Positions 38,945-45,763 of a stretch of DNA of 64,000 nt are shown piece after piece. The stretch comes from Thermococcus argininiproducens (lineage in GTDB: Archaea > Methanobacteriota_B > Thermococci > Thermococcales > Thermococcaceae), in NCBI RefSeq assembly GCF_023746595.1, contig NZ_CP080572.1:1410530-1474529 (forward strand), in the 5' to 3' direction. The position numbers and the translations under genes are program-made. The notes below the pieces were generated by a model. That model worked only from the letters and a program-made list of their open reading frames with translations. It was not told where the DNA came from and ran no database searches. Numbering within the stretch: the stretch's first letter is position 1; every line of letters starts with the position of its first letter.

Positions 38945-39532
38945 ATGAAAATCGAGATACCATACCTAGTGATTGATATTAATGGGAAGCTCTTTATGAT
39001 AGATGCCTATTTCTCAAAGAAAGTCGAAAAGATCGAACATGTCAGTGTCCTTATTAAGAAATTTGACAGAAGCCTACGTAAAGACCCACGTACTCCGCTT
39101 CCAAACTTAATTGATGAAGAAAATGTGGAGTATTTTATTAAGGATGTCTTTAAAGAGGTATATCACCGCTCAGGCAAGAAACTAGACAAAAGACTTCGCC
39201 ATATTCGCAAGTGGAATCTTTTCCGACTATTTGGGATTCCAAGCGGGTTTAAGAGACATAAAGAGAAAGACGAAGAATTGGCAAGGGAAAATCGGGAAAG
39301 TCTTTTGGCACTGGCACTTCTTCAAAAAGTTCTTGGAATTAAAAACCCACAGGAACTTGAGAGTGTGAAAATAAAAGCTGTGGAATGGAGATACTACACA
39401 ATTGAAATCAGAGAAGATGGTATATACAATGAAAAAGGAAAAAAAGACCCAATTTATACGGAACTTGTGGAGAGAGACAGTGGGTTTGCAGGGTCTATTC
39501 ATGCTTTTGAATACAACCAACAGGCTACGTAG
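38945..39532 (+). CDS. Thermococcales hypothetical protein
   Basis: The start is placed at ATG 38945 (195 residues), about 26 bp from the TATA box, so the mRNA is probably leaderless. The protein has an N-terminal beta region (PYLVIDINGKLFMIDAYF), a basic middle (RHIRKWNLFRLFG, about 88-100) and a C-terminal alpha/beta part. The basic middle could bind nucleic acid (inference). It is divergent from hel308 and its end overlaps the oppF gene by 34 bp on the other strand. No family recognised. Confidence 0.75.
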   Translation: MKIEIPYLVIDINGKLFMIDAYFSKKVEKIEHVSVLIKKFDRSLRKDPRTPLPNLIDEENVEYFIKDVFKEVYHRSGKKLDKRLRHIRKWNLFRLFGIPSGFKRHKEKDEELARENRESLLALALLQKVLGIKNPQELESVKIKAVEWRYYTIEIREDGIYNEKGKKDPIYTELVERDSGFAGSIHAFEYNQQAT

Positions 39533-40473
39533 TGGTCTTTCTCTACTTCTACTAATGGAGGCTCGTCTGTTTTACATATACTTTTTGCGTAGGGACATCT
39601 TGGATGGAATCTACATCCACTCGGCGGGTTTATTGGACTTGGGGGTTCTCCACTAACCTTCTGTCTTTTGGCCTTTAACTCTTCAGCAAGCTCTGGATCA
39701 GGAACTGGTATTGCTGAGAGCAAGAATTGGGTATATGGATGTAATGGATTCTCGAAGATTCTCTCTGCAGGGCCAACTTCTACAAGTTTTCCTAGATACA
39801 TCACGCCCATTCTGTGACTCATGTACTTAACAACTCCAAGATCATGAGAAATAAAGAGATATGTAAATCCAAAGTCGGATTGAAGGTCCTTCAGCATGTT
39901 TAGGATGTTTGCTTGTACTGAAACATCAAGTGCTGAGGTGGGTTCGTCTAACACGATAAATTCTGGCTTTAATGCTAATAGTCGGGCTAGTGCTATTCTC
40001 TGTCTCTGACCTCCACTAAATTCATGAGGATAACGATACAAGTGCATTTCGTTCAATCCAACACTTTCTAAAAGCTTAACTACAAATTCCTCTGGATCAT
40101 CTACATGAATTCCATGAAATCTTACAGGTTCCATTATAATTTCAAAAACAGTTTGTCTTGGATTAAGGGAGGAGTATGGGTCTTGAAACATTATCTGGGC
40201 GTCCTTACGGAACTGTTTGAGCTCTTCGCCTTTAAGTTCTGTAATGTTTTTTCCTTTGAATATTATTTCTCCACTAGTAGGCTCTATGAGCCTCAATATT
40301 GTCCTTCCGGTTGTTGTTTTTCCACACCCACTTTCTCCCACTAGCCCAAAGGTTTCACCCTTGTAAATTTCGAAACTTATATCATCCACTGCTTTCACAT
40401 AGCCCTTTGTGAAGAATAATCCCTTAACTGGGAAGTATTTCTTCAAATGTTTAACTTCGAGTACTTTCTCCAT
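39499..40473 (-). CDS. oppF: Oligopeptide/dipeptide ABC transporter ATPase, OppF type
   Basis: The 324-residue ATPase has Walker A GESGCGKTT (about 43-51), Q-loop QDPYSSLNP, signature SGGQRQRIA (about 154) and Walker B FIVLDEPTSALD (about 174-185), then the C-terminal oligopeptide-HPY motif CRFHPRCPYA that may bind an FeS cluster or zinc. It is the last gene of the oppA-B-C-D-F operon on the minus strand and powers import with OppD. Confidence 0.95.
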   Translation of the reverse strand: MEKVLEVKHLKKYFPVKGLFFTKGYVKAVDDISFEIYKGETFGLVGESGCGKTTTGRTILRLIEPTSGEIIFKGKNITELKGEELKQFRKDAQIMFQDPYSSLNPRQTVFEIIMEPVRFHGIHVDDPEEFVVKLLESVGLNEMHLYRYPHEFSGGQRQRIALARLLALKPEFIVLDEPTSALDVSVQANILNMLKDLQSDFGFTYLFISHDLGVVKYMSHRMGVMYLGKLVEVGPAERIFENPLHPYTQFLLSAIPVPDPELAEELKAKRQKVSGEPPSPINPPSGCRFHPRCPYAKSICKTDEPPLVEVEKDHYVACWLYSKA

Positions 40474-40482
40474 GATATCACC

Positions 40483-41460
40483 TCAGTAAAGATGACATGC
40501 AACAAAGTGCCCATCTTCTATTTCCACTAATTCAGGTATTTTCTGTTTACAAACTTCCATGGCATATGGGCATCTTGGATGGAATCTACATCCACCAGGA
40601 GGAGTTATTAAGTTTGGTACTGTTCCAGGAATAGCTTCTAAGCGCTCAATTTTTGTCATTGGATTTGGAACAGCATTTAGAAGACCTTTTGTATATGGAT
40701 GCAGCGGATTCTTAAATATCTGTTTCACACTTCCTATTTCCACAATTTTTCCTGCATACATGACTGCCACTCTATCAGCAGTTTCTGCAACGACACCTAA
40801 ATTATGGGTAATTAAGATAACAGTTGCATGGTATTTTGCTTTGAGCTCATTTATCAAATCCAAAATTTGGGCCTGAACCGTTACATCGAGTGCAGTTGTA
40901 GGTTCGTCAGCTATGAGTACCTTTGGATTATTTGCAATTCCGGTTCCGATAACAACTCTCTGTTTCATACCACCACTGAGTTCATGGGGGTAGTTGTGAA
41001 CTCTCTTCTCTGGATCGGGGATTAGAACAGATCTTAATATATCAACAGCCTTTTTGACACCTTCTTTTATATTTTTTATTCTTCCATGGACCTCCATACC
41101 CTCTGCTATTTGATAACCCACATTGTATAATGGATCAAGAGAGGCGTGGGGGTCCTGAAATATGTACGCTATCTCGTTTCCTCTGATCTCCCTAATTTCT
41201 TCTTCGCTTAATTGCAACAAATCAACAGGGCCTTTCTCCGAATAATAGATTACCTTACCACCTACTATTCTTCCAGGACTTTCTATAAGTTGAGTTAAAG
41301 CTCTTGAAGTTACGCTTTTTCCACATCCTGTTTCTCCTACTAAGGCAAAAGTTTCACCTTTGTAAACATCGAAGGAGACTTTTTCAATGGCTTTTACTAT
41401 TCCTGCATATGTATAAAAGTGAACGGTTAGGTCTCTAACTTGGAGTATGGGCTCAGGCAT
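40483..41460 (-). CDS. oppD: Oligopeptide/dipeptide ABC transporter ATPase, OppD type
   Basis: The 325-residue ATPase has Walker A GETGCGKSV, signature SGGMKQRVV, Walker B VLIADEPTTALD and the C-terminal CRFHPRCPYA motif. It pairs with OppF to form the nucleotide-binding half of the importer. Its start overlaps the oppC end by 8 bp, indicating coupled translation; oppF follows after 9 bp. Confidence 0.95.
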   Translation of the reverse strand: MPEPILQVRDLTVHFYTYAGIVKAIEKVSFDVYKGETFALVGETGCGKSVTSRALTQLIESPGRIVGGKVIYYSEKGPVDLLQLSEEEIREIRGNEIAYIFQDPHASLDPLYNVGYQIAEGMEVHGRIKNIKEGVKKAVDILRSVLIPDPEKRVHNYPHELSGGMKQRVVIGTGIANNPKVLIADEPTTALDVTVQAQILDLINELKAKYHATVILITHNLGVVAETADRVAVMYAGKIVEIGSVKQIFKNPLHPYTKGLLNAVPNPMTKIERLEAIPGTVPNLITPPGGCRFHPRCPYAMEVCKQKIPELVEIEDGHFVACHLY

Positions 41461-42607
41461 TTTCCTCTCCCTCCTTTTTGCTCTTTTTAACCTTGAACTC
41501 TATGCTCCTTCTTGTTTTTGGATCTAAGATGTCTCTAAGTCCATCTCCAAGCAAATTCCATCCGAGTGCTACAAACATGACTATTAGACCGGGGTAGAAG
41601 ACTAACCACCAGGCCTTTGGGAAGTACTGAGCACCATCATATACTATTCTTCCCCAATCTGCAATTGGGGGTGTTGCTCCTAGCCCTAAGAAGCTTAATC
41701 CTGCTTCCATTAGAACCACGCTACCAAAATCTAAGGTTATGTACACTAATATTGGACCCACTATGTTTGGTAAGATGTGCTTAAACATTATAGTCCATGA
41801 ACTGAGACCAATAGCTCTAGCAGCTTCTATGTACAGTTTTTCTTTTTCTGTTAGCGTTGATCCTCTTGTAATTCTAGCATAAACTGGCCACCAGACTATT
41901 ATCATTGCTAGAATTACTGAAAGTAATCTCCCCAAATTACCGGCTTCCCTTACATCCAATGCAAATAACCATAAGACAAACTTTTGAAGGAATGCATGAC
42001 TTTCGATAAAGCCTTGAATTCTATCAGGGAGTACTGCAGATAGTGCAATTGCCAGGATTAGAGCTGGAAATGCTAAAAACATGTCAGTTATACGCATTAA
42101 GAGCTCGTCAACTTTGCCCCCTTTGTATCCTGCCAAGAGGCCCAAGATTACTCCGATAGGCACTCCAAGAGAGATAACTATTATCGAGACAACGAAAGAT
42201 GTTCTTGCTCCACTTAAAATTAGGCTTAGTAAGTCTCTTCCAAAGTGGTCAGCGCCTAGTGGATAGGTTATTGTTGTATCTGCAAATTCTAAATGAGCCT
42301 CACTTCCTGGTGGAGCAAGGATTACTTGAGTGAAATTCATGGTATATAATGAGGGAAAGTAATTATACCTCCATGTTGCAAGTCTCGGTCCAAAAATACC
42401 TAAAAGAATGAATATTACAACCAGGAAAACCCCTATTAAAGCAGGTGGGGATCTGTTAAGAGCATAAAGCATTAACCTCCATTCTTCCATTTTTGATTTG
42501 TTTTTCTTTTTCCAGTCTTTTTTGAATATGCTTATGAATGAACCAAGGCCATAAACTAGTTTATCAGCAATTTTGTCAAATATGTTCTTTTTATACTCGT
42601 CCTGCAT
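41453..42607 (-). CDS. oppC: Oligopeptide/dipeptide ABC transporter permease, OppC type
   Basis: Start ATG 42607, with GAGGTGAG immediately upstream (384 residues). An N-terminal cytoplasmic extension (about 1-55) precedes about six membrane helices. The EAA-like loop reads EAARAIGLSSWTIMFKHILPN, where it contacts the ATPases, and the C-terminus contains the GLSFLGLGATPPIADWG signature of OppC proteins. The long charged tail KKSKKEGEENA overlaps oppD. Confidence 0.93.
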   Translation of the reverse strand: MQDEYKKNIFDKIADKLVYGLGSFISIFKKDWKKKNKSKMEEWRLMLYALNRSPPALIGVFLVVIFILLGIFGPRLATWRYNYFPSLYTMNFTQVILAPPGSEAHLEFADTTITYPLGADHFGRDLLSLILSGARTSFVVSIIVISLGVPIGVILGLLAGYKGGKVDELLMRITDMFLAFPALILAIALSAVLPDRIQGFIESHAFLQKFVLWLFALDVREAGNLGRLLSVILAMIIVWWPVYARITRGSTLTEKEKLYIEAARAIGLSSWTIMFKHILPNIVGPILVYITLDFGSVVLMEAGLSFLGLGATPPIADWGRIVYDGAQYFPKAWWLVFYPGLIVMFVALGWNLLGDGLRDILDPKTRRSIEFKVKKSKKEGEENA

Positions 42608-42620
42608 TTTTCTCACCTCT

Positions 42621-43622
42621 TTAATACCTAACTCTTGGATCTATTACTGCATAGAGAATGTCTACAACTAAATTAGCGGTGACGTATATCAAGGCATAAA
42701 TGAAGGTTATTGCAACAATGACAGGAAAATCTAAGTTCTGGATTGATTGTATTGCATAGCTTCCCATACCCGGAAGAGCAAAAACAGTTTCTGTTATTGG
42801 TGTTCCTCCAAGTAGACCTCCAAACTGCAGACCAAGGACTGTGACTATGGGAACTAAAGCGTTTTTCAAAGCATGTCTGTAGATTCTAAGTTTTGGAACA
42901 CCTTTTGCTTTTAGGAACCCAATGTAATCCCCACTTATCGCCTCTAGGAAAGAGTTTCTAACAAATCTTGCTAATACTCCAGTTCCCATAAATCCAAGAA
43001 CAAATCCCGGGAGCCAGAATCTAGCTAAGTGTTGTTTAAACAACACAAAATTTCCCGTTAAGAGGGCATCTATTATAGGAACATGTGTTATCTGGGTGGC
43101 CGGGGTTGGAGGGACTCCAGCCAAGTTTGTTATTCTAAATTTCACAAAGAACACAAAAATCAGAAGATATCCCAGCCAGAAAACAGGAGTCGAAACACCA
43201 ATTAGGGCAAAGATTCTAACTATTGTATCTACAATACTATTTCTCTTAAGGGCAGAGATTAATCCTAACGGAATTCCAATAATGAGCGTAAATATAAAGG
43301 CTATTATAGCCAACTGAAAAGTTACCGGAAATCTATCCCTTATATCATCAAGTACGGGATTTGAAGTTCTTGGATCTATCAAGGTATTTGTAGCTATACC
43401 CTTTACTAAGAATATGTACTGCTCGTACCAAGGATCGTTTAGGTGGTATCTTTCTTTAATTCTTTCAACAGCTTCCGGAGAGGCCTTTTCGCCACCGGCC
43501 CATGCTTTAGCAGGGTCGGCAGGAATTACATAGGCTATTAAAAAGACTATTAAAGTGACACCAATTATTGTAGGAATAAATGTGAGAACTCTTCTTATCA
43601 AGAATTTCTTGAGTTCAGCCAT
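42621..43622 (-). CDS. oppB: Oligopeptide/dipeptide ABC transporter permease, OppB type
   Basis: The 333-residue permease begins FLIRRVLTFIPTIIGVTLIVF, the usual OppB first helix, and has about six helices with the EAA-type loop FLKAKGVPKLRIYRHALKNA and the C-terminal GGTPITETVFALPGMG signature. A GGGAG site precedes the ATG. The 53-bp gap after oppA contains a U-run. Confidence 0.94.
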   Translation of the reverse strand: MAELKKFLIRRVLTFIPTIIGVTLIVFLIAYVIPADPAKAWAGGEKASPEAVERIKERYHLNDPWYEQYIFLVKGIATNTLIDPRTSNPVLDDIRDRFPVTFQLAIIAFIFTLIIGIPLGLISALKRNSIVDTIVRIFALIGVSTPVFWLGYLLIFVFFVKFRITNLAGVPPTPATQITHVPIIDALLTGNFVLFKQHLARFWLPGFVLGFMGTGVLARFVRNSFLEAISGDYIGFLKAKGVPKLRIYRHALKNALVPIVTVLGLQFGGLLGGTPITETVFALPGMGSYAIQSIQNLDFPVIVAITFIYALIYVTANLVVDILYAVIDPRVRY

Positions 43623-43675: not shown

Positions 43676-45763
43676 TCACGATTCAACTGAAATTTCAATC
43701 TTACTGAATTCGGTTGCACCATATAGGAATGGTCCAGCCCAGTTATCTGAGTCAAGGTAATCTGGTACCCATCCGACAACATAGACATCGTAATCTCCTT
43801 TGGATGTCTTGCTTAAGTATACTGGCCACTCATAGCTTCCTACTGTGACTTGGAATCCAAGTTGGCTCCAAATGTTTTGTAGTAATGTCATGATCTTCTC
43901 ACGAGCACTGTTTCCAGCGTTGTAAATGAGTTCAATCTTGTAGTCACTTGGGTTAATTCCGGCTTCTTGGAGGAGTTGTTGGGCCTTGTTTATATCATAA
44001 GTGTATTTGGTGATTCCATACTCAGTAAATCCAGGCCATGGTTTTGGAATTGGTCCCCAGTTTCTTTCAAGCAATCCGGAGTAAACTACTTCGGATATCT
44101 GATCATATGGTATTGCATAGGCTAGAGCTTCTCTAACTTTTGGATTGTTAAATGGCTCTTTTTGGGTGTTGAAGACTATGAATGTTAATATTGGTTGTAG
44201 AATATCTGTTTGGACTACTGACTTGAATCCTTGGAATTCAAGACCTTTAACGTCATTAACTCTCTCTGGTGGTGTTGCAACAGCATCAACTGTTCCGGTT
44301 TGGAAGAGTTGGATTCTTGAAACAGCATCATTGTTTATAACGTAAATTACTCTCTCATGTCCTGGTTTTATGCTCTTGTCCCAGTAATATGGGTTGCGCT
44401 CGAGAACTATGTAAGCATTTTCTTTGTATTCTTTTACATAGAATGGCCCAGTTCCAACAGGTTGCTTATGCATGAGTTGGTGGGTTGGGTCTTGTTCACC
44501 TTCTTCTATGTAAGCCTCCCAAGCGTCTGGGCTCTTTCCATTGTTTGAAGCGCTTAGTGCCTCTTCGTATTTGTCACCAAGAAGGTACTCCATTGGGACT
44601 ACTGAAAGGAATGGATCTGCTAGTATACCAAGAACTGCGGCGTATGGAGCTGGCAAGACAAGCTTAAAGACACCAGCAGTCTCTCCATTGTATCCAAAAA
44701 CGTTCAACAAGTCTTGGAGAGACTTAACTTCTACAGTCTTTCCATTGTACTCAGCAATAAGTTTCTTGCCCTTTAGAACGTCCTCAAACTCTTTTTCGGT
44801 TAGAGCTTGGGATTTGCTAACGTCCATAAAGCTGGAGACCATCCATGAAACGCTGTGTCCTAATCTCTGGACACGCCAGAATGTGAAGGCAACATCAACA
44901 GCGTCAATGGGGTATGTCTTATCATTCCATGGATCGTAGGCAACAACTCCTCCTCTAATAACAAAGTACCATTCAGTGCCATCTTCATTGTGTGCCCATG
45001 CGACAGCTAAATCTGGAGTTACTTTTTCAGTTTCTTCTTTCCAGTAGGTAACCAAAGTGTCACCAACTTCATGCCAAATTTCCCATCCAAAAGTCTCATA
45101 TGTCCAAGCTGGATCAAAGCTCTCTGGCCATCCGATTGTGCCTATAACGTAAGTTTGAGCGTCGTTCTTGTAGTCTCCAATTCCAATGGGGACACTTGGT
45201 GCATTAGCATCTTCCGAGATTAAATCATACCTCTCTGGGAATGTCGGGTGGTAATATCTGCCCTTAACCCATTCCCAATAAACACGAAGTTGCCTGTTTT
45301 GTCCGAGAATGATTTCAGGTACATACTTGTTTCCAAGGATGTAAAGAGCTTTAAAGAGCTCAGTTCTTATCTCTGGGTTGGTTTCTCTCCTTGCAGCGAT
45401 TACAAGTGCATCTACAGTAGTGTCTCTAAAGAATGCTGGGTTAATAGCACCAAATCCTTGGCCTTCTTCCATTAATTGTTGGACTGCTGGAGTGTTGGCT
45501 TCATCAACAACATATGTGACTTTTATAATTTTCTTTCCGCTGGGAAGAGAAGTAGGGACTTGAGCTCCTTCAGGACCAACTAATATAACGCTCTTATCCG
45601 TTTCAATTACTTCGTAAGTGGGGCCAGTTGGTTGGGTCTCGGTAGAAGTCTCAGTGGGGGTTGAAGTTGTTTGTGTAGTGGTTTCACCACCAATACAACC
45701 GCTTGCAACTACTGCAAAAACTAAAACGCTTATCACTAATAGTGTCGCCAATTGCTTCTTCAT
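43676..45763 (-). CDS. oppA: Oligopeptide-binding lipoprotein (SBP_bac_5), apparently circularly permuted
   Basis: Start ATG 45763, preceded by GGAGGTG (695 residues). Signal helix with lipobox VASGC, a TETSTE linker, then residues about 90-185 contain what is normally the C-terminal segment of this family: TTVDALVIAARRETNPEIRT, NKYVPEIILGQNRQLRVYW, WVKGRYYHPTFPERYDLI. The usual N-terminal start (VIGTIGWPESFDPAWTYET) comes only at about residue 207, and the protein stops at DNWAGPFLYGATEFSKIEIS, just where the C-terminal segment would follow. It should deliver peptides to OppBCDF. The permutation is my reading of motif order. Confidence 0.92.
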   Translation of the reverse strand: MKKQLATLLVISVLVFAVVASGCIGGETTTQTTSTPTETSTETQPTGPTYEVIETDKSVILVGPEGAQVPTSLPSGKKIIKVTYVVDEANTPAVQQLMEEGQGFGAINPAFFRDTTVDALVIAARRETNPEIRTELFKALYILGNKYVPEIILGQNRQLRVYWEWVKGRYYHPTFPERYDLISEDANAPSVPIGIGDYKNDAQTYVIGTIGWPESFDPAWTYETFGWEIWHEVGDTLVTYWKEETEKVTPDLAVAWAHNEDGTEWYFVIRGGVVAYDPWNDKTYPIDAVDVAFTFWRVQRLGHSVSWMVSSFMDVSKSQALTEKEFEDVLKGKKLIAEYNGKTVEVKSLQDLLNVFGYNGETAGVFKLVLPAPYAAVLGILADPFLSVVPMEYLLGDKYEEALSASNNGKSPDAWEAYIEEGEQDPTHQLMHKQPVGTGPFYVKEYKENAYIVLERNPYYWDKSIKPGHERVIYVINNDAVSRIQLFQTGTVDAVATPPERVNDVKGLEFQGFKSVVQTDILQPILTFIVFNTQKEPFNNPKVREALAYAIPYDQISEVVYSGLLERNWGPIPKPWPGFTEYGITKYTYDINKAQQLLQEAGINPSDYKIELIYNAGNSAREKIMTLLQNIWSQLGFQVTVGSYEWPVYLSKTSKGDYDVYVVGWVPDYLDSDNWAGPFLYGATEFSKIEISVES

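Follow-up and report, generated by a model that had tools for sequence, protein, structure and literature searches.

A putatively functional, lipid-anchored circular permutant of the SBP_5 class in Thermococcus argininiproducens, from a family whose chain opening has moved repeatedly

A circularly permuted SBP of an ABC importer has been described in Treponema pallidum, where MglB-2 (Tp0684) is a sugar-binding lipoprotein of the Type I fold for which a connection with tethering was also proposed (PMC4990184). The protein reported here resembles MglB-2 in being a lipid-anchored ABC-importer SBP with a rotated chain and with its ABC partners encoded in the same gene cluster. MglB-2, however, has a Type I fold, binds glucose, has a single reported permutation and shows poor similarity (13%) in the permuted part, whereas the present case concerns archaeal proteins of the SBP_5 class with clear sequence homology and several cuts, found in one orthologous gene and in two families. 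Within that class the reference point is OppA/DppA (PF00496), for example E. coli DppA with DppBCDF (PMC12136057); our protein has all of the profile positions, adjacent genes for DppBCDF and an Asp (Asp668) that aligns with the amino-group Asp, but differs in its rotated chain, an insertion at the cut, a linker closing the old ends and the apparent lack of conservation of the carboxylate-binding Arg. Families with several circular permutants are known, namely the DNA methyltransferase permutation classes and the swaposins, and duplication intermediates have been documented for the methyltransferases (PMC3320104); the case described here is alike in that several permutants occur within one family, but here the difference in order separates sister genera, at ~80% identity and at one and the same place in the operon. 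In the literature searched, which included few subscription journals, there was no report of circular permutation in the SBP_5 class or of serial permutation of a transporter gene, and an earlier report is possible; repeated rotation of the chain order in one gene is very rare.

The gene occupies positions 43676–45763 (minus strand) of the window, that is, of the whole 64,000-nucleotide stretch of the T. argininiproducens genome that was analysed (NZ_CP080572.1), and encodes a DppA-like protein of 695 residues from an ATG start. It is the first gene of a five-gene dpp/opp operon with a DppBCDF-type importer; on the same strand follow DppB-like and DppC-like permeases (42621–43622 and 41453–42616) and DppD-like and DppF-like ATPases (40483–41460 and 39499–40473). 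Residues 1–23 (45695–45763) form a Thermococcales lipobox signal peptide, with ASGC at residues 20–23; the lipobox (ASG↓CIGG) is that of Pyrococcus furiosus PF1408 (PMC3824201). A Thr/Ser-rich linker (residues 24–49; 45617–45694) leads from the lipid anchor to the folded part, and all of the order types described below possess such a linker, of varying length.

Pfam PF00496 (SBP_bac_5) matches residues 247–683 with profile positions 1–364 of 368 (1.7e-70); since Pfam reports only the 'Middle' of SBP_bac_5, the order of the chain ends is not visible from this match. A phmmer search against the PDB aligned residues 202–298 and 429–677 with residues 28–125 and 201–445 of Yersinia DppA (5f1q), and residues 119–187 with residues 469–537 of the same chain, the last alignment being weak alone (i-Evalue 26). 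We used a profile of length 579 made from 15 canonical-order relatives (from Thermotogota, Chloroflexi, Aerophobetes, Bacillota, Thermoproteota and others), which matched in two pieces of rotated order: profile positions 6–498 at residues 201–690 (i-E 2e-62), and positions 500–568, the canonical C-terminus, at residues 112–177 (i-E 6e-11; 1.2e-12 for the isolated segment). Three shuffles of the C-terminal segment and its reversal gave E values of 0.12–1.4 on this profile, whilst six other members of the family matched the canonical C-terminal segment with i-E values of 1e-11 to 5e-8. The motif that closes canonical proteins, RDWVKGWYYNPIYPG, has its counterpart WEWVKGRYYHPTFPE at residues 163–176, and a WVKGxYYxP motif is common to the window protein and the canonical proteins. 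The rotated two-piece match and its null controls confirm, at the level of sequence, the circular permutation proposed in the initial annotation. The view that nothing has been lost holds as well, in that profile positions 6–568 of 579 are covered with no segment missing and the circle is closed by residues 178–200. The displaced final segment had been placed at residues ~90–185: residues 112–177 are indeed the canonical C-terminus and align to that segment only, whereas residues 90–111 belong to an insertion. An unrelated N-terminal domain, the canonical C-terminus having simply been lost, would sit with the weak single-sequence phmmer match and with a Pfam model that spans the middle of the fold only, but is a negligible prospect given the shared WVKGxYYxP motif and profile matches, here and in six other proteins, far from controls at E of at least 0.1. 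A C-terminus encoded downstream of the stop codon was likewise rejected, since dppB starts 53 bp after it.

The rotated chain has the following parts. Residues 50–111 (45431–45616) are a family-specific insertion at the cut site which, with the last five residues of the protein, makes up ~60 residues absent from canonical proteins; in relatives opened elsewhere (types P and T, below) the counterpart of residues 50–111 is joined to the C-terminal strand. The canonical C-terminal segment, N-terminal here, follows at residues 112–177 (45233–45430), then a conserved linker that joins the two canonical chain ends (residues 178–200; 45164–45232), and then the canonical N-terminus and main body (residues 201–690; 43694–45163). 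An AlphaFold2 model of the core (pLDDT 85, pTM 0.83) found its best Foldseek matches, in sequential mode, in DppA, OppA and GbpA (E to 1e-24, TMt 0.50–0.67), and an ordinary SBP_5 fold rather than a Type I fold is predicted. Hinge geometry or the way in which the protein is presented on its lipid anchor may be altered, as the initial annotation proposed.

In DppA, the bound dipeptide is held by an Arg, at its carboxylate, and by an Asp, at its amino group (PMC12136057). When these residues were mapped by hand on the phmmer alignment, the Asp corresponded to the invariant Asp668 of the window protein and the Arg to Asn615; because the Arg aligns with an Asn, the substrate may be something other than a dipeptide, and we do not claim a dipeptide as ligand. 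In one relative (L238, genome G505) a P-type SBP and a glycosidase-like frame lie close together with an N-filled gap between them, which may hint at a sugar substrate. P. furiosus PF1408, known only as a secreted lipoprotein, is described as a putative dipeptide-binding lipoprotein of 79.4 kDa with a lipobox, detected in the supernatant by 30 unique peptides at 52% coverage (PMC3824201). Its signal peptide finds its best match in the window-type protein in most of the Pyrococcus genomes searched, and these proteins have masses of 79.7–81.4 kDa, in agreement with that of PF1408, which from signal peptide and mass is probably the ortholog of the window protein.

Chain order across the family was typed by tblastn with three segments of the window protein, A (residues 50–190), B (198–462) and C (469–690), and we refer to the order of the window protein as W, to a variant with the cut shifted by tens of residues as W2, and to openings at window residues ~466 and ~512 as P and T, respectively. 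Among 94 genomes of the order, full-length orthologs (53–100% identity) read A-B-C in every genus except Palaeococcus; the rotated order that the initial annotation proposed to trace through Thermococcales orthologs is therefore found throughout the other genera examined, with a different rotation in Palaeococcus. Beyond the order, the family is present in 68 of the 229 genomes from the class that includes a Desulfurococcales MAG. Over 126 family rows, the segments read A-B-C in 89 and C-A-B in 37, with a further 6 and 9 rows likewise. Broken W-type genes occur in three Thermococcales genomes (L072 in G078, L073 in G029 and L070 in G015), which suggests that some lineages can do without the gene, and diverged W-type copies are present in two others (three in G170: L190, L227, L228; two in G008: L052).

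The Palaeococcus orthologs (G001–G003; L035, L034, L036/L086) are of type P: they read signal-C-A-B, start at the equivalent of window residue ~466 and end '..NPYYWNKxLWEKEYGYKP', their termini falling within residues 463–470 of the window protein (44354–44377). They are 78–83% identical to the window protein (75–85% for single segments) and are followed by the same dppBCDF genes; in G002 the segments are 76–84% and the dppBCDF products 80–88% identical to those of the window. The P order is also found in many Thermoprotei, but because all segments of the Palaeococcus proteins retain 75–85% identity to Thermococcales W proteins, the Palaeococcus gene is not a Thermoprotei gene. A third cut, type T, was found at one MAG locus (L089:1957–4401, plus strand), where the chain is opened at the equivalent of residues 510–513 (44225–44236); a search of 390 genomes from the phylum of this MAG brought up no further T type. 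The MAG is labelled Thermoplasmata, and its gene groups with Thermococcales. In the W2 group (40% identical; L196–L201, L243–L245, L247, L249, L252), the strand VTYKDWTILVGEAKG is found at the C-terminus rather than at the N-terminus. DppB adjoins the SBP gene at every locus of types W, W2, P and T for which the flanks were inspected.

The sequence that spans the W cut is intact and conserved in P and T proteins, and in an AlphaFold2 model of a P protein, of low confidence overall (pLDDT 51, six sequences), it forms a strand-helix-strand-strand unit in a region of better local confidence. Thermococcales subtype-2 W proteins have the helix at the N-terminus, whereas many Thermoprotei W proteins have it at the C-terminus; this argues for W cuts that arose independently, or for redundant ends that were trimmed in different ways. 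Although some family members come from MAGs, the idea that the rotation is an artefact of assembly or annotation can be set aside with near certainty: the same order recurs in dozens of genomes, many of them single-contig, the P type is present in a finished Palaeococcus genome and in two more of the genus, and purifying selection acts along the frame, codon position 3 differing 2.3–5.8 times as often as position 1 and 3.8–12.8 times as often as position 2 in ten pairs.

Trees were built on sequences rotated to one frame. A tree of 65 rows implies six order changes, with some deep forks weak; in a careful tree of 36 rows the Palaeococcus P rows group with the window's genus and its sister group (support 99/99). 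AU tests rejected a single group for all W (p 7e-51), all P (p 5e-103) and all Thermococcales W (p 1.4e-4), the result being marginal (p 0.037) within Thermococcales subtype 1 alone. The opening point of this family has thus moved repeatedly (W, W2, P and T), and, judged from these alignments and trees, the recurrence is firm, the exact number and direction of the changes less so.

The genome holds one other SBP_5 gene, outside the window (G000:C1:299241–302009, equivalent to L253:2742–5510), which encodes a CipA-like protein of 923 residues and has permease- and ATPase-like frames of its own downstream. In this protein PF00496 positions 200–363 come before positions 28–158, and it is therefore permuted as well; the 15-sequence canonical profile is too distant to be of use (E 0.016), and the rotation rests on PF00496 and on relatives of canonical order, such as L292, in which PF00496 positions 19–350 match residues 125–596 in one stretch, as expected of an unpermuted protein. 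We searched for homologs across the order and typed four segments by tblastn, which gave 28 proteins of order abck (P-like), 17 of order ckab (canonical), nine of order bcka (W-like) and seven of order kabc (Q). The four possible rotations of the circle are accordingly all present in the Thermococcales, and none of the other 20 possible full orders of four segments was seen among the typed rows. In addition, a complete genome (G031) encodes a fused tandem dimer, abck-abck, in a single 2085-residue frame (L285:1379–7633, plus strand), the two units being 59% identical over 839 residues; L284:909–4811 (plus strand) looks like the same dimer, its frame running off the end of the contig. A tree of the rotated core (60 rows, the dimer left out) implies seven order changes, and AU tests rejected single groups for P (3e-52), W (1e-4) and Q (2e-57); the canonical rows group together with weak support (40). 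The CipA-like family has likewise been re-opened, in four rotations and a fused tandem dimer.

Members of the CipA-like family carry a Sec signal; their C-terminal tail, 'ICGPAxLxGLAxxPLLLRRRK', looks like an anchor. P. furiosus CipA (PF0190) belongs to this family, and its published signal peptide resembles that of the canonical-order L292 (PMC3824201, PMC3462420), so that it probably has the canonical order, unlike the P-like protein of the window genome. Units of P order are fused behind NosD or beta-helix domains in L286 and L289, whilst in L290 a canonical unit precedes PEGA and protein-kinase domains within a frame of ~1450 residues, by its sequence an SBP-sensor kinase architecture in an archaeon; L291 and L302 may share this architecture, as judged by length.

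An alternative history would allow one or two ancient permutations only, with W and P paralogs differentially lost or transferred and the apparent recurrence an artefact of the gene trees. The weak deep forks would suit this, as would the Palaeococcus P proteins ending at the same point as Thermoprotei P proteins, and members of W2 order and of P order (L245, L246) occur side by side in the genome G475, which indicates that paralogy plays some part. Nonetheless, we regard this history as improbable, since the AU tests reject one clade per order in the window's family and single P, W and Q clades in the CipA-like family, Palaeococcus P segments are as close to Thermococcales W proteins as given above, and the W cut is placed differently in Thermococcales, Thermoprotei and W2.

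It is very probable, in our assessment, that the window protein is a putatively functional, lipid-anchored SBP_5 circular permutant from a family with a repeatedly moved opening, the CipA-like family being likewise affected, and that the likely cause is tandem duplication. The old termini are closed by the conserved linker of ~22 residues, and the new ones open near canonical profile position ~499, within an insertion at the surface; the fold and the permease contacts would stay, the chain ends would move, and ligand would be bound between the two lobes and handed to DppBC as by a normal SBP. Flexible linkers and separate or modular anchor modules would make new termini tolerable. The likeliest route would be tandem duplication and fusion followed by loss of the redundant parts, as in the published duplication-fusion-truncation model (PMC3320104), for which the L285 dimer is the expected intermediate. 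Such an intermediate is known from the CipA-like family only. A 1297-residue frame in G505, considered as a tandem dimer of the window's family, proved to combine the glycosidase-like sequence and P-type SBP mentioned above across the N-filled gap. Real rotations might instead have arisen through splitting and rejoining of the gene or through the transposition of segments, an unlikely route with some substance: no fused intermediate or terminal redundancy is seen in any member of the window's family, and the pieces join without overlap. Against it stand the complete dimer of L285 and its apparent counterpart L284, the lack of separate intact half-genes in the genomes searched, and the restriction to cyclic orders, which disfavours free shuffling as this would not give such a pattern.

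Natural circular permutation usually occurs once per family and at great distance, whereas here it recurs in orthologous transporter genes, in one instance between genera that have kept ~80% identity, and the sister family retains both a fused dimer and the unpermuted order; near-identical sequences can therefore be used to test how the rotation arises and how well new termini are tolerated. As the Pfam SBP_bac_5 model spans the middle of the fold only, such rotations escape annotation. Tandem duplication with serial re-opening is probably a habit of hyperthermophilic-archaeal SBP_5 importers, two families having been re-cut at least five to six times each via fused tandem dimers into at least four linear forms, with ends and anchors that differ between sister genera; relocation of the termini may be selected, or may be aided by a specific recombination route. 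The finding offers thermostable natural scaffolds for sensor design, and raises the question of which tethering sites leave an SBP able to deliver to its permease.
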